Made by a program: the position numbers and the translations under genes. From a virus, in IMG/VR virus record IMGVR_UViG_3300009152_000143, positions 1 to 30,144 of that record: DNA of 30,144 bases; one strand, written 5' to 3'. Under the pieces are notes generated by a model that had not been told where the DNA came from, did not search any database, and saw only the letters and a list, made by a program, of their open reading frames with translations. Below, piece by piece: positions 1-30,144 of the stretch (position 1 is its first letter; every line of letters starts with the position of its first letter).

Positions 1-588
1 AGTGGTACTTTAACTAATGATGGCAATACAAACGTTCCTATTACCTTCACAATTTCTGGTGGGGTTTCTGCAAACTTAACTGCGCCTATTACTATCAATA
101 ACACGACCCTAAGTAAAACGCTAACTGTGGTAAAAAATCTACGCAGTGCTGCATACGCTGTAAATATAACTGCGTCTGAGAGGACCGGAAATGTTGTAAC
201 CCTAACTACGGCCGGGCATAGCTACTATGTCGGGGATATTGTCACTATTGCCAGCGTCACCACTGTCGGTAGAACCGGACTAAACGAAGCGGCTAGAACA
301 ATCACTGCCGTTACTTCTACCACTATTACCTATACAAGTGCTACTAGCGGAACTTTAGCAAGTCTTGCAACCAATGGAAATATTGGACTGGATAGTGCAG
401 ATACCCTAGTTGTCGATAATTATAACAAAACAGCATTATTCAATGGATCTGCAACTAATGCTCGTTCTTACATTGATGCCTTGGTTGACTGGATAGTTCT
501 AGCTCCAGGAGATAACACAATTACATTTACCGATTCCGGCGGGACTACAGATATGTCTGTCGAATACCGCTCCGGCTGGATAGGCTAA
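1..588 (+). CDS. Dit-like distal tail protein, 5' end outside window
   Basis: The frame is open from the first base of the window and stops at 588, so this is the C-terminal 195 residues of a longer protein. The end of the protein, from about residue 130 of the visible part (DTLVVDNYNKTALFNG, then W..LAPGDNTITF and the final YRSGWIG), matches the C-terminal domain of siphovirus distal tail (Dit-like, SPP1 gp19.1 type) proteins of actinophages, which form the hub joining tail tube and tip. Between the two halves sits an insertion at about residues 54-115 with the pattern VVTLTTAGHS..VGDIVTI..NE..TITAVTSTTITYTSA, which is one copy of a module repeated in the next two genes. It is followed after 38 bases by the tail-tip gene, as expected for the Dit-Tal gene order. 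The GTG at 127 is only an internal codon. The family call rests on the C-terminus and position; the repeat insertion is directly seen. Confidence 0.62.
   Translation, partial: SGTLTNDGNTNVPITFTISGGVSANLTAPITINNTTLSKTLTVVKNLRSAAYAVNITASERTGNVVTLTTAGHSYYVGDIVTIASVTTVGRTGLNEAARTITAVTSTTITYTSATSGTLASLATNGNIGLDSADTLVVDNYNKTALFNGSATNARSYIDALVDWIVLAPGDNTITFTDSGGTTDMSVEYRSGWIG
160..360 (+). repeat. FCCH-like beta module in the Dit-like gene
   Basis: One copy of the tail-module pattern (TLTTAGHS, VGDIV, ITAVTSTTITYTS) inserted in the distal tail protein. It is the first of about eleven copies spread over three consecutive genes. Boundaries are approximate. Confidence 0.5.
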
Positions 589-626
589 AATAGTTGTATA
601 ACGACGTTTAGACATAAGGTTAGACA

Positions 627-3600
627 ATGCCAATTACTACGAATGATTTTTCTGCAAAAGTAGCAGACTATCGTTATTTTGTCGTAGACATCGTAACCAA
701 CGAAATAGCCGCTGAAATTCCGTTTAGTGATGTGAGCTTTGAACGTGCACTTAAAGGTGCTGGTAGTTTTTCTGGAACTATTGCTGTAGCTCCGGACACA
801 AAGAATTTAAACCTTTATGATAACACCATGCCTGGAAAAATGGCACTCTACGTAACAAGAAACAATATCTGCGTATGGGGTGGAATTATTTGGTCTCGGG
901 AATACACTCTTTTAGATAGAACTCTTTCCGTAAATGCGTCCGAATTTACTAGCTACCTGACGCACAGATTTGTCTGGAAGACGTTTAACTACGACGTAGA
1001 GGCTATAGCTACAAAAACAACCACTGGTGGTAATGTAAAAATTACCATGAAAGATAGGGAAATTATTTACCCTACTGTAGATGCCAGCGGTAATAGAACT
1101 AAAGTAAAAATCTCATTCGGTGAGACTGGCATTGGCGGTTACTATAACGGATACTATGAAATCTTAGCTAGCCCAGCTCCTGGAACTACAGTTGCAGCTG
1201 AAGGTACTGAATCCTATTTTTATGTAACAATTCCAAAACTTCCTGCACGCCCGAGCAGCTACTACTCTCTAGTTACAGTTACCTCAAAGGTTGATACCTA
1301 CGATTATGCTAGAAAACTTATAACTGAAACTTTTAATGACTTTACGTCAATTGAATTTGCAAATGAGCTAGTAGAGCCTGGTGTAACTAATGCCTATGAA
1401 ACAACTTATCGTCAAGTTGTTAGCGGTATTGCTACGATCACTACAAGCGAACCCCACGGTTTAGTGGCCGGTCAAACAGTTCAGCTTACAAATGTTCATG
1501 TTGATTTGAATAACGACATTGATAAAAACGAATCATGGACTGTGACTGATGTCCCCTCTACTACCACTTATAAATTTGATACAGGTGATTCTGGCTTAAC
1601 CGTTGCCAACAATGCGTCCGCTCTGTCTGAGACTGCCTATCCGTTAAAGTATCGCAGAGTTAGTGAGACCCTTAAAAAGTCTATTAATAAAGTTTTTGTT
1701 TCCGGAAACGTTGCCACTATGCAAACAATAAAGCCTCACTACTTTAAAGTCGGCGACGTAGTAATCCTAAACGTAGAAAAAAATAAAGTAATATCAAAAG
1801 ACGTAAAATCTGCTGTTTTAAATAAAGATGGCCAGGGGGCTCTAGTCACCGCCGTTCCAACTAAATATAAATTTAGCTACAGCCTGACAACTGCAAATAC
1901 AACTACTCAGGGTGTGGCTCTTACTAATTCTTATGTAAACTACTCGGTTCCTAGACGAAGACTAGAACTAGACACGTACGCTGCATATCCACACGATTTC
2001 GTAGCCAGAGATCACATCTATGTTTCTGGTGTAGATGATCCCAGCTGGGGAGAGCCGCTTTATGGCGGATATCACACTGTAACTGCTGTCGAAACTGGTG
2101 GCACACCTACATGGTTCCAGTATGAACCTCTATATGATATGACCGTAGAGCCTGGTAGTAAAGCAACTATTAAAAAGTTTCAATACAAAAAGAAAAACAA
2201 AAGCAATGCCACTATTAACAAGGTGTTTGTGACTACTGAACGTGCTCACGGATTTTTAGTTGGTGATAACATAACCGTTAATATTAATGCAAAAGGAAAC
2301 AGCAATGACAAAGTATTTGATGGTACCCAGGTTGTCGCTTCTGTAGTTGATGATATTACTTTTACATATACTCCAGATACTGCGGCTAGTGCTAATGTCA
2401 CTCTACAAGATGCTTCTGGAACGGTCACCAGAACTAAAGCACTAATTAGCTCTGTTTCTAAAAGCTATAAAACTATAACTGCTAAGCAAAGAGTTGGGTC
2501 TACGGCCACCATAACAACATCTGCTGCGCATGGCTTTGTAGAAGATGATTTTGTAATGGTTCAATCATCTGACAGTACATTTAATAACTCCGGCGATCCA
2601 GTAAAAGTTACTGACGTTATTTCTACTACCAGATTTAGCTACGTTAATACCGGAACTGCTACAGGAAACACTGCAGCTACTGGGTCTACCGCTCTTGTTT
2701 ACTCTAACTTTGGTACAGCACTATTTCCTACTGGAGCTGCCTGCACCTCGGGGCTAACTACTAGAACAATAACTTGCGCGGATCATGGACTAGAGGTCGG
2801 CAACTGGGTTGTTGTAAATATTGTTGGAAACGAATCGCATTTTAGTAATGACAATATTCCTGTAAAAGTTGCTTCGGTGCCCTCTACTAGTACTTTTACT
2901 TATGCTTACACAGCGCCGTCCGTAACCCTTGCTCTTACTGGCTTAACTAAAGCAATAGTAACTAGGGCTGCCTATGCTTCTAAACTTCCTCTAACCTATG
3001 TTAAAAGTTATGGTGAATTTCCAAACAACACCAACCTAGGTGGAATGGATTTTTCAACGGATGACTACAGCACCTATCCGGTATTGACTAACACTCTTCT
3101 TGGTGGAAATTTAACAAACGTTGGAGAACACCTAGACAAATACTCAGAAAGTATAGATGGGTTTGAATACAGAATCGACTGCGCCGTACAAACTATAGGC
3201 GGTATAAGCAGCTTCAAAAGAACTTTTGTTTTTATTCCAAGAAAACCGGACTCTCTAACCGAATATCTATCGGCAACCCCTCTTGCCGCCGGAGCGTACG
3301 CTCCTCCAAGTGCTTTTGGGGCAGATAAATTAATTTTTGAGTACCCTGGAAATATTAGTACTGTTAGTTTGTCAGAGAACGCAGAGAACGCTGCCACCAG
3401 AATGTTTATTACTGCCGATAGTGGTGGCTCTGGTTCCGAGTCCTCTCCTAGATATTCGGCTGCTACCGACACCGAACTTCTTGCAAATGGCTGGCCTATT
3501 CTGGATGCTACCGAAAAAGTTGACTGGTCTGCCTCTCCTGTAGATATGATTAACGTAGATGACTGGGGAAACTACGATATCGAGCGTGATCTATATAACA

Positions 3601-3890
3601 CTGCAACTAGGTACCTAAAACAGTCAAAACCACCTATGGGTGAGTACTCTATCGAAATTAATGGTTCGTTAGATCCTGTTGTTGGTTCCTATAATCCTGG
3701 TGACTGGTGTCAAGTTATTATCAATGATGACTTTATTGCGGAACGTTTAAACAGTTATTTGGAACCGCGTAGTAATCTACTTCTTAGAAAGATAGAATCA
3801 ATTAAGGTAAGTGTGCCAAATTCTCCAGCGTTTCCGGAGCAAATTACATTAAATCTAATCCCTGAATGGCAGGTTGATACCAGTGGCTAG
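627..3890 (+). CDS. Tail-tip (Gp37-like/Tal-like) minor tail protein with inserted repeat array
   Basis: 1087 residues. The first about 200 residues (start MPITTNDFSAKVADYRYFVV, then SFERALKGAGSFSGTI and WGGIIWSREY) look like the ReqiPepy6 Gp37-like tail proteins of actinophages, which bind on the Dit hub and often start the tail tip. The conserved body seems to resume near residue 790 and runs to the end (a segment PGDWCQVIINDDF near the C-terminus and a final LNLIPEW). In between, residues about 260-780 hold five to six copies of a module of about 50-60 residues: hydrophobic strand with ITT, then HGF or HGL, VGD.V.V, an N or F-rich loop, V..V.STT.F.Y. The pattern resembles the FCCH-type small beta domains found in phage tail proteins. 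ATG at 627 has AAGG about 8 bases upstream. Overlaps the next gene by 8 bases. The protein acts in the virion, probably in host-surface contact. Confidence 0.7.
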   Translation: MPITTNDFSAKVADYRYFVVDIVTNEIAAEIPFSDVSFERALKGAGSFSGTIAVAPDTKNLNLYDNTMPGKMALYVTRNNICVWGGIIWSREYTLLDRTLSVNASEFTSYLTHRFVWKTFNYDVEAIATKTTTGGNVKITMKDREIIYPTVDASGNRTKVKISFGETGIGGYYNGYYEILASPAPGTTVAAEGTESYFYVTIPKLPARPSSYYSLVTVTSKVDTYDYARKLITETFNDFTSIEFANELVEPGVTNAYETTYRQVVSGIATITTSEPHGLVAGQTVQLTNVHVDLNNDIDKNESWTVTDVPSTTTYKFDTGDSGLTVANNASALSETAYPLKYRRVSETLKKSINKVFVSGNVATMQTIKPHYFKVGDVVILNVEKNKVISKDVKSAVLNKDGQGALVTAVPTKYKFSYSLTTANTTTQGVALTNSYVNYSVPRRRLELDTYAAYPHDFVARDHIYVSGVDDPSWGEPLYGGYHTVTAVETGGTPTWFQYEPLYDMTVEPGSKATIKKFQYKKKNKSNATINKVFVTTERAHGFLVGDNITVNINAKGNSNDKVFDGTQVVASVVDDITFTYTPDTAASANVTLQDASGTVTRTKALISSVSKSYKTITAKQRVGSTATITTSAAHGFVEDDFVMVQSSDSTFNNSGDPVKVTDVISTTRFSYVNTGTATGNTAATGSTALVYSNFGTALFPTGAACTSGLTTRTITCADHGLEVGNWVVVNIVGNESHFSNDNIPVKVASVPSTSTFTYAYTAPSVTLALTGLTKAIVTRAAYASKLPLTYVKSYGEFPNNTNLGGMDFSTDDYSTYPVLTNTLLGGNLTNVGEHLDKYSESIDGFEYRIDCAVQTIGGISSFKRTFVFIPRKPDSLTEYLSATPLAAGAYAPPSAFGADKLIFEYPGNISTVSLSENAENAATRMFITADSGGSGSESSPRYSAATDTELLANGWPILDATEKVDWSASPVDMINVDDWGNYDIERDLYNTATRYLKQSKPPMGEYSIEINGSLDPVVGSYNPGDWCQVIINDDFIAERLNSYLEPRSNLLLRKIESIKVSVPNSPAFPEQITLNLIPEWQVDTSG
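1405..2950 (+). repeat. Array of FCCH-like modules in the tail-tip gene
   Basis: Protein-level repeats. Clear copies begin near 1423 (ATITTSEPHGL), 1708 (ATMQTIKPHYF, VGDVV), 2220 (VFVTTERAHGFLVGD), 2494 (ATITTSAAHGF) and 2752 (RTITCADHGLEVGN); a more degenerate copy lies near 1980-2130 (YPHDF, DHIYVSGV). Each copy ends in V..V.STT.F.Y or close to it. The DNA of the copies has diverged, so this is old or selected diversification and not a recent tandem duplication. Confidence 0.6.
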
Positions 3891-6800
3891 TGGACGACTT
3901 AGAAGAAATAAAAGTATTGGCTCTTATTTAACCTCTCTGGAGCAGACTGCAACTAACCTAAATACTAGGCAGAATTTTCTTACAACCGGTCTGGCTTCGG
4001 GAAGTGTTTCCGAGTCGGCTCTGTCTGAAGAATTGACTATTGCTAATAAGACAATTCAAACTGAAAACTTTGTAGAAGGCTATTCTGGTTGGCGCATTTC
4101 TGGAGACGGGGCTGCAGAGTTTGGAAGCGTCGTAGTTCGTGGAGATATTAATGCTTTCTCTGGGACAATTGGTTACTGGAATATTTCGACCCCGGCGGTG
4201 TCTCGTGTAATTGGTCCATACACGCTGCTCGGCACATTTGTTGAAAGCAGTGCTACAGGCAGCAACGATGTAGACACTACTAGTGGAACTTACGTTGGTC
4301 TTTACAAGTCCTACTCTCCCGAAGAAATTGTTGTAACGTCTAAATTTAGAGCGTCAAACGTAGCGTCTCTGACTGCAGAAAATCACCAATTTGAGGTTGG
4401 TGATTATGTAATAGTTTCTCTAGAAGATGACACTACTTTTAACAATGGTTTTATTCCTACAATAATTACAGATGCCACTAATGATACGTTTACCTACGCT
4501 AATACCGGATCTAACGTGGCAGAATCCGCTGCAACTGGCGTGGTTCAGCTCTACAATCCTGACGTTGCCGGACTCTATCTAAGAGACTATGGCAAACGTG
4601 AGTTTGATTACGGGTACTTCTCTAGCACTGGCGTGGCTTATGTTGCTGCTGAAACTTTGAACTTAATCTACAACCCTAGCTTTGAGTTTACTGATACTAA
4701 TACTTATACAGTAACTGCAGCTTCATCTTCTTCGGTAAACGTCGCTACCTACACCGTTAACTACGTAGCTGCATCAAACCCATTCACTATTGGTCAAAAA
4801 ATAACCATTATTGGCATGACTGCTTCTTATTTTAATGGAAGCTTCTTTGTAACTTCTATTGCCGGATCATCTGGTGCATGGACGGTTACTGTAACTGATA
4901 CAACCTCCCCGTTTACATTCCCGGGAACTGCTACCGGATTTGGAACCATAAGCTCGACAGTAAAACCTTCTGTTCTTAGCTGGGATACGTCGACTGCTGG
5001 TTCAGTGACCAGCTGGTCATTTATTAGTGCAACTCTTAGAGATTATGCCACTGCCAGTAGTTACGGTGGTGCTATTAGCTGGACAAATACCGTTCCAACA
5101 ACTAAATTCCGTGGAATTGTTGGATACGGGGTTGGGGATGCTTATAAAGTATTTGACACCAGTAGATCCTTATACTTCAGTTATGATGCTTTCTTAAACT
5201 ATCGACCATTCTCATCTACTATTTCAAACTTTGTTACAACTTCCGGTTCAGTAGTAACTATTACCACTAGCGGAACTCACGGGCTATCCGTTAATGACAT
5301 TGTTTATCTAGACTTTGATGCAAGAGGTGCCACTGGTTTTCCAGGTGGAGCTAATGAGAACTGGGCAACGGACGAATTAAACGATAACAGTAGGCTATTT
5401 AAAGTATTAACTGTACCAACGACCACAACTTTTACAATCACTAATATACAGGCTGCTACCGCAACTGCTGGAATCACTACTATAGCTAGGAGTACCCGTG
5501 ACGGTATTACCACAAGAGCTAAAAATGTATATAAGGTAGTCTGGCCAGCTATAGACCTAAGCGAAGTTGTTTTTGAGTTCCCTAATGCTACAACAACTAC
5601 CCTGTATAGCGTGCTAGATGTCACCACTAAAGCCGCCTGGGATGCAAGCACCTATTATAAGTACAAAACCATCAATCCAAATGACTGGATGCTAGAATTT
5701 TTGGATCCAGTGGATGGGATAGAACCGCTTCTAGGTAACCAAATTCTTATAGATGGTGCTGCCCTTAGAAGTGCATACGCTACTAATGACAATACAAATT
5801 TTCTTTTGGAAGCTGATATAAAAGTCCAAATTCCAATCAAAACATACTCTCAAACGTATGACAATGGAGATGCTGGAACCTACACTTCTACTACAGGTAC
5901 GTTGCATACTTCTAAAGCAAATATTACTGCTATTAGCTACACTGCAAACACCATTACATATACAGCAGCTAATAACTTTGCAGCTGGAGACTATGTCACC
6001 GTTACAGGTGCATCATCAGCTCAATACAACATTACTAATGAGTTGATAGCTACTGCAACAGCAGCTAACTTTACTGTGACAAAAACAATAGCTGCCGGTA
6101 CAACATCTACTGCAAATGCTGTAGCAAATAACGTTCTTAGCACTGTAATAGACCAAGTATTGCTTTCCACCGAACCGGTGGCATTCTTTGGTGATACGTC
6201 ATCATCTTTTTATTGGAAAGACGAAACACTAAACTCTCCTAGTCAGGTTTCGGTTCAGGAGCCTAAAAAGTGGATTGATATCGATCTAGCTACTCAGACT
6301 GGTACTTTAAATAATCTAGACTACATAGGATTTAAAACAGGCTATATCAGCCACCCAATGTTTGCTAAGCCTAGTATCTCTACCATATATGATTCTTCAT
6401 ATAACCCTCCAGCAGGCTTTGGGATAGATGACTATGAAGAATTAAAACTTAGTAGCGGTATTTTTCAGAAAGCTAATGCCGATGATACTTCTATAGTTAG
6501 TTTTGAATCATATATCAGACCGCTAACTGACGTAAAATCAGCAATGTCCGAGATGGTTTCTAAGGCCTATACAAGCGAAGCTAGTGTAAGAACTTATGCT
6601 GAGTATCTTAATAGCAGAGTTGTAATTTATGGCGATTTTACTCATTTTGAGAGCGCAATATTGGCCAATAATATATACCCAAATAGCGCCGGTTATGGTG
6701 CGGACTATGGGTATCACGAGACCCCGCTGACTGATGATGGCACTATAAATATATATGGTTCTTATGTAGAAATCGGTAATAGTGCAGACACTCTTCCCAC

Positions 6801-7530
6801 TCAGCTTAGTGCCAACGGTGATGCTACTTTTGCAGGGACTGTAGATGTTACCGGACTATCTACTCTAAGTACTGTAGAAGTTTCCAGTAGCGTTAAAGTC
6901 CTCACTACCACTGGATCATTTACCACTGCCGATACTAGTGGTACGGGTATTTGGCTTGATACTGGCTTTATTGCTGTAGCTCGATCTGCTGCCACTCCTA
7001 TGTTTGTTAAACGACAGACCGATGATGGGCCTTTAATTTCTTTAATACAGTCTGGCACTCAAGAAGGAAGTATATCTGTCGCTGGTACCACCGTAAGTTA
7101 TAACACATTCCTTGGTTCGCACTACTCGGAAATTACTGAACCTACTCCACCTAAAGGCACAGTTATGGAATCTACAAACAGCCTTGTAGAAAATAGATAT
7201 CAAAGCCAAGAACGTATGCCTAAAGCAAAAATCTCTGATACTGCCGGTAGCAGCAAAGTATATGGAGTATATTTGGGACCAGACTACGATGAGAATGATC
7301 AGCGGAGTGGGCACCTAATTGCTGCTATCGGAGCTGCTTGGATTAGAATTGCTTCTGGCGTATCCGTGCAGCCGGGAGATCTTATTCAATCTAATGGCGA
7401 TGGCTGCGGTCAAGTTCAGTCAGACGACACTATCAGATCATCAACTGTCGGAAAAGTCATATCAAACGTTGTCGTTGAGACTTACGAAGATGGTTCTTAC
7501 CTAGTTCCTTGTGTTCTGTATTGCGGTTAG
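3883..7530 (+). CDS. Minor tail protein with repeat modules and C-terminal peptidase-G2/IMC-like domain
   Basis: 1215 residues from the GTG at 3883. The frame also has a TTG at 3874, but GGCAGG at 3868-3873 is well spaced only for the GTG, which overlaps the upstream stop in GTGGCTAG. The N-terminus (about residues 45-100) has EENFVEG-like then GWRISGDGAAEFG and VVVRGDI, common in tail proteins that link the tip to side fibres. Four copies of the FCCH-like module sit near residues 156-220, 275-350, 455-540 and 677-745. The C-terminal 140 residues (FLGSHYSE, then LPxFKISDT-like MPKAKISDT, VYGVYLG, VQPGDLIQSNGDG, IRSSTVGKV, and final PCVLYCG) resemble the intramolecular-chaperone/peptidase G2 type domain of phage appendage proteins, which can cut itself off after folding the trimer. 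I name that family from memory; the catalytic serine cannot be fixed here. No transmembrane segment or signal peptide. Confidence 0.68.
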   Translation: MASGRLRRNKSIGSYLTSLEQTATNLNTRQNFLTTGLASGSVSESALSEELTIANKTIQTENFVEGYSGWRISGDGAAEFGSVVVRGDINAFSGTIGYWNISTPAVSRVIGPYTLLGTFVESSATGSNDVDTTSGTYVGLYKSYSPEEIVVTSKFRASNVASLTAENHQFEVGDYVIVSLEDDTTFNNGFIPTIITDATNDTFTYANTGSNVAESAATGVVQLYNPDVAGLYLRDYGKREFDYGYFSSTGVAYVAAETLNLIYNPSFEFTDTNTYTVTAASSSSVNVATYTVNYVAASNPFTIGQKITIIGMTASYFNGSFFVTSIAGSSGAWTVTVTDTTSPFTFPGTATGFGTISSTVKPSVLSWDTSTAGSVTSWSFISATLRDYATASSYGGAISWTNTVPTTKFRGIVGYGVGDAYKVFDTSRSLYFSYDAFLNYRPFSSTISNFVTTSGSVVTITTSGTHGLSVNDIVYLDFDARGATGFPGGANENWATDELNDNSRLFKVLTVPTTTTFTITNIQAATATAGITTIARSTRDGITTRAKNVYKVVWPAIDLSEVVFEFPNATTTTLYSVLDVTTKAAWDASTYYKYKTINPNDWMLEFLDPVDGIEPLLGNQILIDGAALRSAYATNDNTNFLLEADIKVQIPIKTYSQTYDNGDAGTYTSTTGTLHTSKANITAISYTANTITYTAANNFAAGDYVTVTGASSAQYNITNELIATATAANFTVTKTIAAGTTSTANAVANNVLSTVIDQVLLSTEPVAFFGDTSSSFYWKDETLNSPSQVSVQEPKKWIDIDLATQTGTLNNLDYIGFKTGYISHPMFAKPSISTIYDSSYNPPAGFGIDDYEELKLSSGIFQKANADDTSIVSFESYIRPLTDVKSAMSEMVSKAYTSEASVRTYAEYLNSRVVIYGDFTHFESAILANNIYPNSAGYGADYGYHETPLTDDGTINIYGSYVEIGNSADTLPTQLSANGDATFAGTVDVTGLSTLSTVEVSSSVKVLTTTGSFTTADTSGTGIWLDTGFIAVARSAATPMFVKRQTDDGPLISLIQSGTQEGSISVAGTTVSYNTFLGSHYSEITEPTPPKGTVMESTNSLVENRYQSQERMPKAKISDTAGSSKVYGVYLGPDYDENDQRSGHLIAAIGAAWIRIASGVSVQPGDLIQSNGDGCGQVQSDDTIRSSTVGKVISNVVVETYEDGSYLVPCVLYCG
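4340..6125 (+). repeat. FCCH-like modules dispersed in the minor tail protein gene
   Basis: Copies begin near 4351 (VASLTAENHQFEVGDYVIV), 4720 (NVATYTVNY, FTIGQKITIIGM), 5248 (VVTITTSGTHGLSVND) and 5930 (TITYTAANNFAAGDYVTV). The spacing between copies is uneven and other sequence lies between them, unlike the near-tandem array in the preceding gene. Confidence 0.5.
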
Positions 7531-17099: not shown

Positions 17100-17450
17100 A
17101 TGGCTAAAGATTCTAGAATCGGTGAGTCCCTCTGGTTTATCTGGGATGGGGATAGTAGTGAGCCATTTCACGAAGACTCTATTGTGTTCTACACAGAAGA
17201 GCACGTAGATATTGAAGAAGATGTTGTAAGAAAAGCTCTAGCTTCTTCAATACAGAGGGAAGGCATATCTGATTCACTATCTGGTGGATTTATGCTAATA
17301 GCCTCTGGGGCCTCTGGTCATTCTTATTATGGCTACTCCCTTGACTATGAGACGCAAGCTATTTGCAACTCTAATGGTTACTCGGAATCTGGACTATTTT
17401 TTAGTCAAGTTGCTCCAATTACCTGGGTAGAAATTTTTGATGTTTATTAG
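17100..17450 (+). CDS. Unknown acidic protein upstream of WhiB
   Basis: 116 residues, leaderless from the TATAAT at 17088. Acidic N-terminal half (DGDSSEPFHEDS, EEHVDIEEDVVRKALASS) and an aromatic, glycine/serine-rich C-terminal half (SGASGHSYYGYSLDYE). No cysteines fit for metal, no membrane segment beyond a short hydrophobic run (GGFMLIASGASG). Its end overlaps the WhiB gene by 11 bases, so the two are co-expressed. No family recognised. Confidence 0.6.
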   Translation: MAKDSRIGESLWFIWDGDSSEPFHEDSIVFYTEEHVDIEEDVVRKALASSIQREGISDSLSGGFMLIASGASGHSYYGYSLDYETQAICNSNGYSESGLFFSQVAPITWVEIFDVY

Positions 17451-17901
17451 TAATGAAGATTGGCACGAAGATGCTGAATGTGCCAAACCAGAAAACAAAG
17501 ATTACGTAAAAGATTTTTTTGCCAATAGGCCATCTAAGCAATACAAGGCATTAAATATCTGTGAAGCATGTCCTGTCAGGAAAGAGTGTCTTCGCTGGGC
17601 GTTAGATACCAAGCAAGTGTGGGGGATCTGGGGAGGTCTTAACTACAAACAGATCCGTAGGACTCTGTCTGTAAACTGGGAAGGTCAGGAGATGCGCCAC
17701 AATAGGTTCCCGCTCTGCCCTTACTGTAAATCAAAGACAGCTTCTCTGTCTACTAAAACTATCTCCAGGCCAAACGGTGGGCGTTGGGCAACTATGAAAA
17801 TGGTTGAGTGTTCTGACTGCTTATTCAGCTGGCAAAGTAGAACTAGTGCTAACGCGGTTGACGCTTATCACTCACTAGAAACTAAAAAGAAAAAGTCTTA
17901 A
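17440..17901 (+). CDS. whiB: WhiB-family regulator with C-terminal zinc ribbon
   Basis: 153 residues from ATG 17440 (a TTG lies one codon upstream). WhiB proteins carry a [4Fe-4S] cluster, bind the housekeeping sigma factor and control transcription in actinobacteria. The four cysteines are C14, C41, C44 and C50 (C-x26-C-x2-C-x5-C), and the turn GIWGG at 62-66 is the family signature. Unlike usual phage WhiB proteins of about 70-110 residues, it has an extra C-terminal domain with C93-x2-C96 and C124-x2-C127 (LCPYCKSK, ECSDC), a zinc ribbon, and a basic end. The ribbon may bind DNA or RNA polymerase. Overlaps the preceding gene by 11 bases. The gene marks the host as an actinobacterium. Its stop lies 6 bases from the stop of the convergent phosphoesterase gene. 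Confidence 0.9.
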   Translation: MFISNEDWHEDAECAKPENKDYVKDFFANRPSKQYKALNICEACPVRKECLRWALDTKQVWGIWGGLNYKQIRRTLSVNWEGQEMRHNRFPLCPYCKSKTASLSTKTISRPNGGRWATMKMVECSDCLFSWQSRTSANAVDAYHSLETKKKKS

Positions 17902-25658: not shown

Positions 25659-25853
25659 TTATTTATTAAACTTTACCCATATGCGTTCGTGCCAGTAGTA
25701 CACAACAACCTTAACAACCACTTCTAGACTGACTATCTGAGCAGCAGTCTCAAACTTGCCTGTGATGAATAAAGCAATTAAAAAAGTGTTTATGCTTTGC
25801 CAAACCCTATATGTTATTGCTTTAGTAATAGAGATTTTTCTAGAACTAGCCAC
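25659..25853 (-). CDS. DUF2061 small membrane protein
   Basis: 64 residues, two hydrophobic helices at about 20-33 (NTFLIALFITG) and 36-54 (TAAQIVSLEVVVKVVVYYWHE). The order K-x-I-T-Y-R-x-W, then FITG, then EVVVKVVVYYWHERIW is the DUF2061 signature, in particular the YYWHER end. DUF2061 proteins are known to sit beside adenylylsulfate kinase genes in bacteria and phages, and here the APS-kinase-like gene directly precedes it, the ATG overlapping its stop by one base. Role unknown; something tied to sulfate or PAPS is the usual guess. Last gene of the minus-strand fibre operon. Confidence 0.85.
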   Translation of the reverse strand: MASSRKISITKAITYRVWQSINTFLIALFITGKFETAAQIVSLEVVVKVVVYYWHERIWVKFNK

Positions 25854-26599
25854 TATAGCCCCAGTTCGGCACGCTTTTTAGTTGCTGAGATAGCCTGAAG
25901 TTCTGGGCTCAGTTCTACCTTCTCGATTAGGTAGCCGACATCACGCCCGTAAACAATGTTTGTAATGTTTGGTAGACGCATCTTTAGGGTATCTGGTTGC
26001 TCTGGAATGAACTCGACTACTTGATGAAAAGTGAGAGGGTCTTTCTCGGAAGTGCCGTAAGTGTTTCGGATACCGACTAAGACTTGCTCGGTTCGGTTAT
26101 GTGCTTCCTCTTTTAGAGCTTGATGACCCTCGTGCCAAGGCTGGTAGCGGCCTAGCATCAGAGTTGTTGGGGCAGACCAGTCGAAAAGGCTAAACTTTTT
26201 AATTACTTCGTCAGCCATTTCTTTGTCTGACTTCCACTCGTAAAAAGTGTGGTCAGCGTCAATGACTGGAATCCACATAGCGTCTGTATCGGAAAAACGA
26301 CTAGAGGCAATAGTGTTCATCACAATCTTGATGTCTGGGGTGCCGAACGCTTTACGAGTTGCCTTAGTTGGGCAGATAAAGTCAACAATTACAGTGTGAC
26401 CTTGCTTAGATAGCAAGCGAGCCATCTCAGCGAGGCGACGAGCGTTTTCTGCTCTATCTTTCTCACTAAAGCCTAGGTCAGAGTTTAGGGTGGAGCGAAC
26501 CTCGTCTGCGTTTAGGTGAATAGCGTTTAGACGCTCCTTTAGGGCTTCTGCCAAGGTTGTTTTACCTGAGCCTGGTAGTCCTAGGATTTGAATAATCAC
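25853..26599 (-). CDS. cysC: APS kinase (CysC-like) fused to HxGH nucleotidyltransferase
   Basis: 248 residues. Residues 1-100 are CysC-like: Walker A GLPGSGKTT at 7-15, LNADEVR at 29-35, DLGFSEKDRAENARR at 41-55, and HTVIVDFICPTKATR at 68-82. This part would phosphorylate adenylylsulfate to PAPS, the sulfate donor. Residues about 145-248 are a second domain with LGRYQPWHEGHQAL (HxGH at 156-159), YGRDVGYLIE and ISATKKR at 237-243, the signature of nucleotidyltransferases such as NadM-type adenylyltransferases. The HxGH fold is shared with ATP sulfurylase, so the fusion could cover both steps from sulfate to PAPS, but by motif it looks closer to NadM. Start overlaps the sulfotransferase stop (4 bases, ATGA). 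Arginines here use CGT/CGC, unlike the sulfotransferase. Confidence 0.85.
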   Translation of the reverse strand: MIIQILGLPGSGKTTLAEALKERLNAIHLNADEVRSTLNSDLGFSEKDRAENARRLAEMARLLSKQGHTVIVDFICPTKATRKAFGTPDIKIVMNTIASSRFSDTDAMWIPVIDADHTFYEWKSDKEMADEVIKKFSLFDWSAPTTLMLGRYQPWHEGHQALKEEAHNRTEQVLVGIRNTYGTSEKDPLTFHQVVEFIPEQPDTLKMRLPNITNIVYGRDVGYLIEKVELSPELQAISATKKRAELGL

Positions 26600-27426
26600 T
26601 GCACTTTGTCTTTCACATAGTTGTAGAGTTCTAAGTCTAGCGAGTTGTTTTCGTACACTCCTGCAATCTCTTCTTCAGTTAAAAGTGCCTTCAGTTTAGC
26701 AGTGGTCCACTCGTTGCCTTGGTTATCAGTGAATATGCTGTAGTTGAAGGTAGGGTTTTCGTTGACCAGAGACGCTCTAAACTCTTCTTCAATATCCAGG
26801 TCGTAGTTTTCTTTGAACCAGTTGCAAACATTGGTAGTAAATCGGTCATGGTTTTCCAAGGTGTCGATAATAGTCATCTTGTCTACTTGAGATTTTGCGT
26901 ATTCAATTGAGGTCTTATCGTTTGCAATCATCCACTCTTTCCAAAAACTACCGTGAGAAGGCTGGGTTTCAAACTTAATCGAGCCATCTTCAGGAAGTAG
27001 TTTATTAATGTGTTTTACATAAAAAATAGCCTCTTCAACCCCATTACAAACAAATTTTGTTTGCAAGTTATTATTATTTACAAACTTTTCATCCGTAAAA
27101 AGAAAATACTTAAATAGGTTCCCAATATCATCTTTTGTATATTCTTCAAAATAAACTGACCAAGCATCAGTCATCATTGCCCAAGCAAACTGACTCACCA
27201 TTCTGTCCAATGGGTCTCTAAAGACACAAGCAGTCTCGATTTCTGGGTAGTTATCACTTGGGTGTGAGCCGTAGTGAGTTTGAACAAAGGCGTACTTATT
27301 GTAGCCATCAAAGTTTTGAGTGATATTAGAAAAAACTTTTAAACCGTTGTCTTCTAGAATTGGAATAAGGTTTTTAAATCCTTTTCCTCCGCATTTTGGA
27401 ATGTGTAAATACGAGAGTGTTTTCAT
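26596..27426 (-). CDS. PAPS-dependent sulfotransferase
   Basis: 276 residues. 5'-phosphosulfate-binding loop LHIPKCGGKGFKNL at 7-20 and 3'-phosphate-binding motif CVFRDPLDRMVSQF at 67-80 (R70, S78). Both are in the order and spacing of the carbohydrate sulfotransferase families that move sulfate from PAPS to a sugar or other hydroxyl. No signal peptide or membrane anchor, so it acts in the host cytosol. The ATG lies 3 bases after the stop of the tail fibre gene with AAGGGA upstream, and its own stop overlaps the APS kinase start by 4 bases, so donor synthesis and transfer are produced together. The middle and C-terminal thirds are acidic, and AGA is used for the arginines in the RDPLDR motif, which differs from the APS kinase gene. 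Confidence 0.85.
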   Translation of the reverse strand: MKTLSYLHIPKCGGKGFKNLIPILEDNGLKVFSNITQNFDGYNKYAFVQTHYGSHPSDNYPEIETACVFRDPLDRMVSQFAWAMMTDAWSVYFEEYTKDDIGNLFKYFLFTDEKFVNNNNLQTKFVCNGVEEAIFYVKHINKLLPEDGSIKFETQPSHGSFWKEWMIANDKTSIEYAKSQVDKMTIIDTLENHDRFTTNVCNWFKENYDLDIEEEFRASLVNENPTFNYSIFTDNQGNEWTTAKLKALLTEEEIAGVYENNSLDLELYNYVKDKVQ

Positions 27427-27429
27427 TTG

Positions 27430-30144
27430 TTATCCCTTCACTTTTAAGAATGTAAAACTAGTTCCGTCTCCACTAGAAGTACTAAGCGACGAGGAATCCC
27501 CCGTTGCATTGTCAGGAACAAAGCGTTTTACAGTAACTGCTGCGGTGCTATAAACATCAAATACTAAAATAGCACTAGCAAAACTTGCTCTAGAGCGTAG
27601 CAATGCGTTAATTGGTATTGTTGCAACTCCCTTAACCCCAGAGATTGCTGGAATAGTTACTTCTGACGAGGCTAGTCCGCCCAAAGATACATTATTAGTA
27701 TCTTTTGACCAAAGTTTAACAGTAACTATAGCCGCAGTATTATTTGCCTGTGTTTGAATAATTATGTTTCCACTAACTATCCAAGAAGCATCTCCCAAAG
27801 CACTGGTTCCATTGATAGTAATGTTGCTACCAGTAAAAAAACCAACCTCAGTCCAAGTATTTGCTGCTACTGCGACATCAGCACCCATAGGCATATGGGC
27901 TACTTTGTTTGTGTTTGGATTGGCACTGGTAATGCTTGTAGTTAGATTTAGTGCATTAGCAGTGACTAATGTACCACTGATTGTAGTACCAGTGATTGCA
28001 CCCGTTGAAGTAATCCCAGCGACAGTGAGAGCACCTGCGTAAGACACATTGGCTAAGGTAGTTCCAGCAGCATTTTTAATGTCCAGTAAGTTTACATATG
28101 AGTAGGCAACTATCGTTACACCAGTTACGCTAAAGGAGTTTGGGTACCCAGGATAGTAAATATAGAAATAATAACCACCATAGTTGACAGCATCATAATA
28201 GAGAGATGCACTAAATGGAGTTCTAAGTCCAACTGGTGAATTTGAGCCAGTCAGGTAGACAGTGTAGCCATTATTGTTTGTAAGACCAGATGGTAATGTC
28301 ATTCCTATTGAAAAATAGTAGTAGCCATTGCCTTTATCATAGTAAGTGTATACTGCTGTAAGAGGTGTAGTTATTGTCCCTTGATTAATAACCACTGGGG
28401 CAGTGTTACCGCTTGTGGTAGCAAAAGTTTGAGTAGCAGTAAAAGTATTATTTGCTGAAAGTGAAACTCCACCAGCCCCGCTAATTCCTTGAACACCCTG
28501 AGTTCCTGTTCCAGTTAAACCTTGAAGACCTGTGGTTCCTTGTGTACCAGTTATTCCCTGAGTTCCAGTGGTTCCAGTTGTACCTTGTAGTCCTGTTGTT
28601 CCAGTTGTTCCCTGAGTTCCAGTTGTACCTTGAGTACCTGCCCCAGTTCCACCTTGCGTGCCAGTTGTGCCTTGAGTGCCTTGAGTACCTGTCCCAGTAA
28701 GACCCTGTGTACCAGTTGTACCTTGAGTGCCTGAGGCACCACGCTGCCCAACTACAGATACTGTCCAGCTTGTGAACGTTCCGCTTCCACTAAATACATC
28801 TACGGTAACTGTGATACTGCTGTTAGCAGTAATTGCGGTGATAGGGCCATCCATGTAATAGGTTGGCGTAGAAACTGGGCTTATACGAACTCTTGTTCCT
28901 AGAGCAAGTGCTCCAGTAGAAGACATTGAAAATGTTTTTGCCGTTGTCCCCATAACCACTGATGATGATGAAGTTAAGTTGTCATATCCTATGCCATTAG
29001 CCCCGGTAATTCCCTGAGATCCAGTTGTGCCTTGTAAGCCTGTGTCTCCCGTGGTTCCTGTGGTTCCCTGAGATCCGGTTAATCCCTGAGGACCTATAGT
29101 ACCTTGAGTACCTTGAATACCAGTTGTTCCTTGGGCTCCAACTGGGCTTATAGAGTCAAGCGAGCCGTCACCCTTTACATACTGGGCAGAAGTACCACCT
29201 TGGGTGATGAACTTATCTGCGTTGATGTACTGGAAGTAATCAATGGCGTTTGTTGTGCCACCAGTACCAGACGAAGCAACTAAGGTTGAATTTGGCTTAT
29301 CGTATACGCAGTTGAGGATTGAGTAGAAGCCGCTCAAAACGACTGGTGCGACATTGTTTAGTGCGGAAGTCAGTAGTTGACAGTTTGCTAAAGTAATCAC
29401 ACTTGAGGCAGCCGATGTCACGGCATTGGTCACAGCAGCAACGACTACAGAATCTACAAGGCTTAGAGTTCCAGCAGTTAGAACAGGGGCAACGGTGACA
29501 GCACTTTTTACAATTACATTGGCACTAGCGTTGTTGACGGTTATGAAGTTTGGATTTCCACCAAAGATAGCGACTAAACCAGACCCAGTGATGCTTGCGG
29601 CAGCAAGGTCACACAAACGAAGAACGGTGTAGTCAGCATTACTGCTCTTTGTAAAAGTTCCAGAAACTTCACAGTTCAAGATGTTTACATTCCCTGTACC
29701 AGTGGGCGTAGTGATAGTAAGGTTTGTTATTTTTAAACCCGAGATAGTACAGCCAACACTTGTACTTACAGTTCCAGAGATTACGATGTTTCCACCAATA
29801 AGACCAGGTCCAGTTATGGTCGTGTACTGAGTAGTTATTGAAGGGCTTTCAGTGTAAGTCCCTGGGTGAACAATAATGGTTTTACGCTGTGAATCTACTA
29901 AAGTCAATGCCTTAGTAATAGAAGCAACTGGAGTAAGCAAATCACCATTACCAGTAGTGTCATTTCCATCTACTTGACTAACGTGAATTTCATAGTCATA
30001 GCCTGTGAAGGTTGTGCCTTGTACACCTTGAATACCTTGGACACCTAGAGTACCTTGAGTACCTTGAATACCAATTAGGCCTTGTGCTCCAGTTGTACCT
30101 TGAGTACCTAACTCACCCTGGGTACCAGTTGTTCCTTGCGCACC
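27430..30144 (-). CDS. Collagen-like, beta-helix tail fibre protein, 5' end outside window
   Basis: The minus-strand frame is open to the right window edge, giving 904 residues of a longer fibre. Reading from its visible N-terminal side: Gly-x-y repeats (GTQGTTGAQG), a linker with EIHVSQVDGNDTTGNG, a right-handed beta-helix-like part (ASITKALTLVDSQRKTIIV, HPGTYTESPSITTQYTTITG), a short ADKFITQGGTSAQYVKGDG segment, two more collagen-like blocks around a folded segment (YDNLTSSSSVVMGTTAKTF), then a beta-rich C-terminal half ending in FTFLKVKG. This is the make-up of phage tail fibres and spikes that recognise host glycans. No enzyme motif can be assigned. The sulfotransferase gene starts 3 bases after its stop, an unusual neighbour for a fibre. 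The internal TTG at 29938-29940 is not the real start. Confidence 0.85.
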   Translation of the reverse strand, partial: GAQGTTGTQGELGTQGTTGAQGLIGIQGTQGTLGVQGIQGVQGTTFTGYDYEIHVSQVDGNDTTGNGDLLTPVASITKALTLVDSQRKTIIVHPGTYTESPSITTQYTTITGPGLIGGNIVISGTVSTSVGCTISGLKITNLTITTPTGTGNVNILNCEVSGTFTKSSNADYTVLRLCDLAAASITGSGLVAIFGGNPNFITVNNASANVIVKSAVTVAPVLTAGTLSLVDSVVVAAVTNAVTSAASSVITLANCQLLTSALNNVAPVVLSGFYSILNCVYDKPNSTLVASSGTGGTTNAIDYFQYINADKFITQGGTSAQYVKGDGSLDSISPVGAQGTTGIQGTQGTIGPQGLTGSQGTTGTTGDTGLQGTTGSQGITGANGIGYDNLTSSSSVVMGTTAKTFSMSSTGALALGTRVRISPVSTPTYYMDGPITAITANSSITVTVDVFSGSGTFTSWTVSVVGQRGASGTQGTTGTQGLTGTGTQGTQGTTGTQGGTGAGTQGTTGTQGTTGTTGLQGTTGTTGTQGITGTQGTTGLQGLTGTGTQGVQGISGAGGVSLSANNTFTATQTFATTSGNTAPVVINQGTITTPLTAVYTYYDKGNGYYYFSIGMTLPSGLTNNNGYTVYLTGSNSPVGLRTPFSASLYYDAVNYGGYYFYIYYPGYPNSFSVTGVTIVAYSYVNLLDIKNAAGTTLANVSYAGALTVAGITSTGAITGTTISGTLVTANALNLTTSITSANPNTNKVAHMPMGADVAVAANTWTEVGFFTGSNITINGTSALGDASWIVSGNIIIQTQANNTAAIVTVKLWSKDTNNVSLGGLASSEVTIPAISGVKGVATIPINALLRSRASFASAILVFDVYSTAAVTVKRFVPDNATGDSSSLSTSSGDGTSFTFLKVKG
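28467..28750 (-). repeat. Collagen-like Gly-x-y coding repeat, main block
   Basis: Repeats of GTTGTQG, GLQG and related triplets, read on the minus strand from GQRGASG to GISGAGG. Forms the collagen-like stalk. Highly similar codons make it a likely site of repeat-number change. Confidence 0.85.
28993..29145 (-). repeat. Collagen-like Gly-x-y coding repeat, second block
   Basis: Minus-strand reading from PVGAQGTTG to GANGIGYDN (about 17 Gly-x-y triplets). Separated from the main block by a folded segment of about 80 residues. Confidence 0.8.
30010..30144 (-). repeat. Collagen-like Gly-x-y coding repeat at the window edge
   Basis: Minus-strand reading starts GAQGTTGTQGELGTQG at the edge and ends IQGVQGTT before the FTGYDYE linker. 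Continues beyond the window. Confidence 0.8.

Follow-up and report, generated by a model that had tools for sequence, protein, structure and literature searches.

Eleven copies of one homologous domain of ~65 residues, all of common ancestry, are distributed over three consecutive tail genes of the virus analysed here. The window is the whole stretch of 30,144 nucleotides that was analysed (positions 1-30,144 of IMG/VR record IMGVR_UViG_3300009152_000143), and the three genes encode a Dit-like distal tail protein with one copy, a tail hub with six and a minor tail protein with four. The module is predicted to be a six-stranded beta-barrel of the endosialidase-barrel/E1-FCCH fold. In the reading that we prefer, to which we give a probability of roughly 0.55, the barrels in the Dit, the hub and the fibre would point outward and make many weak contacts with host-surface glycans, acting by avidity.

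The three open reading frames are arranged head to tail (Table 1), the first being open at the window start. The Dit-like protein matched Pfam SPP1_Dit at aa 127-193 (37.5 bits, cut-off 25), and its module adjoins this domain; a second candidate module at aa 119-176 (10.2 bits) overlaps the Dit domain and was left out of the count. In a close relative, the full-length Dit (L010:6298-7962) weakly matches CBM_4_9 at its N-terminus (E 3.5e-4, below the cut-off). The body that the modules interrupt in the second protein is a Mu gp44-like tail hub: Foldseek matched its AlphaFold2 monomer model (pLDDT 75, pTM 0.47) to Mu gp44 (1wru, 1e-7), 3cdd (1e-6) and diffocin (8v3w, 7e-8), and more weakly to the Bxb1 and Douge tail tips. 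Compared with Mu gp44/gp27-type hubs, whose fold it matches, the window hub adds two insertion sites, with ~530 module residues at the main one. The third protein is likely the central fibre; its Phage_Tail_Tip match is weak (0.0041, under the cut-off), and its homologues match Peptidase_S74, the endosialidase chaperone domain (in phage DSL-LC01 above the curated cut-off, in L010 just below).

Table 1. Features of the three tail genes and of the WhiB-like gene, in window positions; bit scores of modules are from the independent profile.
Feature	Position	Strand	Description and evidence
Dit-like distal tail protein, C-terminal part	1..588	+	gene cut by window start; SPP1_Dit; PHROG distal tail protein Dit
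Dit-like module	187..333	+	aa 63-111; 31.8 bits
Tail hub with module array, 1087 aa	627..3890	+	PHROG 1885 minor tail protein, 1.5e-20; Foldseek
Hub body, N-terminal piece	657..1001	+	aa 11-125; 73% mean identity, six relatives
Insertion site A	1002..1241	+	aa 126-205; degenerate module-like stretch, 3.9 bits only
Hub body, middle piece	1242..1391	+	aa 206-255; 65% mean identity; alignment
Hub module 1	1422..1577	+	aa 266-317; 41.8 bits
Hub module 2	1704..1880	+	aa 360-418; 31.9 bits
Hub module 3	1950..2123	+	aa 442-499 (profile match 455-499); 19.9 bits
Hub module 4	2217..2369	+	aa 531-581; 37.0 bits
Hub module 5	2496..2642	+	aa 624-672; 40.7 bits; model and Foldseek
Hub module 6	2742..2906	+	aa 706-760 (profile match 714-759); 23.4 bits
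Hub body, C-terminal piece	2988..3887	+	aa 788-1087; 67% mean identity
Minor tail protein, likely central fibre, 1218 aa from TTG	3874..7530	+	GTG four codons downstream possible
Minor tail module 1	4354..4497	+	aa 161-208; 37.1 bits
Module-sized stretch missing from L016	4717..4965	+	249-nt in-frame indel; DNA alignment
Minor tail module 2	4732..4896	+	aa 287-341 (profile match 289-331); 19.9 bits; absent in L016
Minor tail module 3	5245..5436	+	aa 458-521; 29.2 bits
Minor tail module 4	5929..6081	+	aa 686-736 (profile match 693-733); 19.8 bits
WhiB-like transcription factor	17437-17901		Pfam 61 bits

The count of the copies comes from an independent module profile, built from 400 modules that were all taken from other phage loci, with the window and its close relatives excluded. 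It found exactly eleven copies at 19.8-41.8 bits, against a best score of 10.0 among 900 shuffles, and the alignment of motif-anchored segments also gave eleven candidate modules. The copies span 187 to 6081, in good agreement with the original prediction of about eleven copies of one pattern in the Dit-like, tail-tip and minor tail proteins between 160 and 6125. A model built from the six hub copies only detected the Dit copy at 12.8 bits and two of the minor-tail copies at 20.5 and 22.8 bits, with shuffle maxima of 10.7 and 4.0; minor-tail copy 2 was not recovered by this model, and copy 4 reached just 5.4 bits. The same prediction held that the DNA is diverged while the pattern is kept, which is what we observed: window positions 1-7530 contain no direct DNA repeat longer than 44 nt, and the median amino acid identity between the window copies is 34%.

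Alignment of the window hub with the insert-free hub of Streptomyces phage OnionKnight located two insertion sites, ~aa 126-205 and aa 256-787, flanking a conserved middle piece. The second comprises 532 residues, close to the insert of ~520 residues that had been proposed to split the tail-tip body. The N-terminal body piece is kept in relatives both with and without modules, and at insertion site A the hub of L010 carries one additional full module. Homologous hubs that bear this module at the site corresponding to that of the window array were found in Actinomycetia phage DSL-LC01, with 2 modules, and in Microbacterium phages Cece, Pumpernickel and A3Wally, with ~7-9 modules plus half-length repeats. 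Among the relatives, the number of modules per hub is 0, 2, 3, 4, 6, 7 or up to ~12. The distance separating the outer body pieces, compared in 80 hubs, varies between 57 and 1487 residues; as the hub-body tree lacks full resolution along its backbone, we claim no number of independent array expansions. Hub bodies line the channel in solved tails. Burial of the insert within the tail tube or a plug, for which the baseplate core described in PMC13252515 could be cited, is nevertheless very improbable, because the same sites hold from none to ~1500 residues per subunit while the body is conserved, and because other virion proteins carry the same module. With three copies of an insert of up to ~1500 aa, a position in the lumen would hardly be possible.

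Hub aa 610-696, which contain module 5, were folded alone by AlphaFold2 using an alignment with 60 relatives, and the model (pLDDT 88.9) has six strands. Its top eight Foldseek matches were K1F and phi92 endosialidases (prob 1.00, TM 0.62-0.65, 20-26% identity), and ubiquitin E1 chains ranked next (prob ~1.00, TM 0.50-0.73; TM 0.54 for the isolated FCCH 2v31). Searched against the PDB, the module sequence profile matched endosialidases over nearly the whole module (4hiz, 9e-6; 1v0e/3gvj, 4e-4); TAL-effector matches in these profile searches consisted of summed fragments of 14-19 residues, no single domain exceeding ~5 bits, and were rejected as chance. Pfam recognised E1_FCCH in 10 and End_beta_barrel in 6 of 40 modules, and tblastn searches of isolated phages with single modules yielded weak matches only. 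Taken together, the independent profile and the module model bear out the expectation that one fold is common to the three tail-tip genes, and both the sequence profile and Foldseek place the endosialidase barrel closer to it than the E1 FCCH domain.

The phage endosialidase beta-barrel (PF12195; K1F and phi92 spikes) has the same predicted fold over the whole module and weak but significant sequence similarity to it, the full-domain match in sequence being less certain than that in fold: the best single-module match is 2.8e-5, but the family was not listed for any window protein in the Pfam search. In the endosialidases, a single barrel lies within a capsule-cleaving enzyme, whereas in the window the Dit, the hub and the fibre carry multiple copies and no recognised enzyme domain. 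E1_FCCH (PF16190), for its part, has the HG..VGD.V.V...NG motif and a similar fold in common with the module. The window proteins score 15.7-16.7 bits with it, under the curated cut-off of 29.5, which is passed by whole proteins of relatives (L010 hub, 33.1 bits; Cece gp81, 39.0 bits). Read literally, the Pfam name, these weak matches and the E1 structures among the Foldseek matches would assign the modules a part in a ubiquitin-like E1 reaction. We rejected this reading, whose probability is negligible: the endosialidase barrel is closer, the genomic context is purely tail structural, and Pfam found no adenylation or other E1 domain in any of the three proteins.

The original prediction suggested a shuffled domain, and this proved correct for the relatives but not, as far as recent exchange is concerned, for the window genome itself. 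Each hub module of the window has its best match in the same-position module of L009 or L010 (~61-84%), its own paralogues being far weaker: the array is old and was inherited in place. Given this position-by-position orthology of the six hub modules with those of relatives, the window genome shows no sign of recent exchange among the three genes. On the other hand, single-module gain or loss and copying between genes do occur in the relatives. The nearest relative, L016, is 89% identical over 7.8 kb and is without minor-tail module 2 owing to a 249-nt in-frame indel. The best match of the additional L010 hub module is the Dit module of the window (55% over 75 aa). In L017, the Dit module shares 77% identity with a minor-tail module over 70 aa, and the two are alignable as DNA, whereas the best between-genome match is far weaker; in L080, Dit, hub and minor tail modules are 54-61% alike, and L056 is a further case. 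We infer the direction of each of these events. Module pairs within one gene that appeared 100% identical came from overlapping extraction windows and not from repeats.

A permutation test of within-genome cross-gene similarity points to a modest genome-wide excess. It was found between hub and minor tail modules (0 of 2000 shuffles reached the observed count) and between Dit and minor tail modules (11 of 2000), whereas between Dit and hub modules there was none (317 of 2000); the whole test depends on very few lineages. The domain might also spread and decay nearly neutrally through recombination among tail genes, with small effect on fitness. Near relatives do differ in module copy number, and a few lineages do have cross-gene copies. 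However, the hub modules are position-orthologous and keep 42-68% identity across relatives, and the arrays are large and a cost to the virion, making such drift unlikely.

The modules are a general tail decoration, and confining them to the tail tip, as was first supposed, is too narrow. The major tail protein of A3Wally carries a module (71.5 bits), as do the major tail proteins of several metagenomic relatives, and head-tail adaptors (phrog_783) have a C-terminal extension with a module (L075:53-1453, L080:800-2188 and L083:701-2101). The upstream genes covered for L010 contained no module copy, and in L009 one weak match (14.1 bits) was found in a partial upstream ORF. A second upstream gene (L004:804-3590, and the matching gene in L005, L006, L078 and L084) encodes tandem half-length repeats of ~36 aa after the Dit domain, which correspond to the front half of the module; the carriers are Microbacterium phages and metagenomic relatives.

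Small beta domains in tandem often serve as spacers. The barrels could be inert, like Ig-like or fn3 domains, and lengthen or stiffen the baseplate as structural arms that hold other parts, copy number then being a matter of geometry. We regard this pure spacer role as a serious rival, possible although not the one we favour. Microbacterium phages have an fn3-rich gene between Dit and hub, the modules of the tail tube and adaptor are equally compatible with a structural role or with general decoration, the conserved positions within the module (T, H and the terminal Y) look structural, like a fold core, and E1 enzymes have this fold without using it to bind sugar. Against a spacer stand the functional glycan site in the nearest solved relative and the strong variation of copy number and loop lengths at one hub site.

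Weak glycan adhesion becomes more credible in view of the closest solved structure, a phage endosialidase barrel that binds polysialic acid. In the K1F endosialidase, three regions bind polysialic acid, of which this barrel is one; the S460R substitution in it causes host-specific defects, and substitutions there alter plating on particular strains (PMC12632334). In the window proteins, the barrel is inserted singly or in tandem into loops of Dit, gp44-like hub and minor tail protein, and under the adhesion reading the modules would lie outside the trimeric hub and the hexameric Dit. Many weak module contacts with host-surface polysaccharide could then add up to avidity, and the gain or loss of a module, or a change in its variable loops, would tune reversible adsorption while the tube-sealing core stays untouched.

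Such a design would be that of an 'evolved Dit / evolved Tal' in which an endosialidase-type barrel replaces the usual carbohydrate-binding module (CBM). Evolved Dits, evolved Tals and decorated MTPs with CBMs are documented (PMC7291167). In siphophages of lactic acid bacteria, accessory beta modules are likewise inserted in the Dit, the gp27/gp44-like hub and the major tail protein (PMC7291167), and in the window, too, the accessory domain lies in a loop of a conserved core, the hub body being conserved with and without the insert and SPP1_Dit standing beside the module. There, however, one or two CBMs are found, whereas here the module has a different fold, forms tandem arrays of 2 to ~12 and belongs to actinobacterial phages. 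What appears new is thus the module with an endosialidase-type barrel in tandem arrays, the evolved Dit/Tal design being known already.

The virus probably infects actinobacteria, as suggested by the WhiB gene in the window and by its Streptomyces and Microbacterium relatives. Farther along the window, positions 25853-27426 (- strand) encode an APS kinase (Pfam 76 bits) with a fused cytidylyltransferase-like domain, the latter weakly matched. This fusion adjoins a Sulfotransfer_2 protein, beside a large fibre-like ORF of collagen repeats (GTQGTTG-type) at 27430-30144 (- strand) that is open at the window end, and could form part of a phage sulfation cassette.

Searches for the site of phage host contact usually look to the receptor-binding fibre; in this virus, the hub that seals the tail tube bears a variable array of adhesive-looking barrels, and near relatives let single-module gains, losses and between-gene copies be read directly. 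Glycan binding by the modules would also correct the misleading 'ubiquitin E1' family name of the module in Pfam. More speculatively, one interchangeable glycan-binding barrel might be used throughout the virion (adaptor, tail tube, Dit, hub and fibre) and be copied between genes, so that recognition would change by module number and loop sequence and not by swaps of the receptor-binding fibre; we hold this wider idea only tentatively. If the modules bind glycans, their copy number would be a readable adsorption trait in many mostly uncultured phages.
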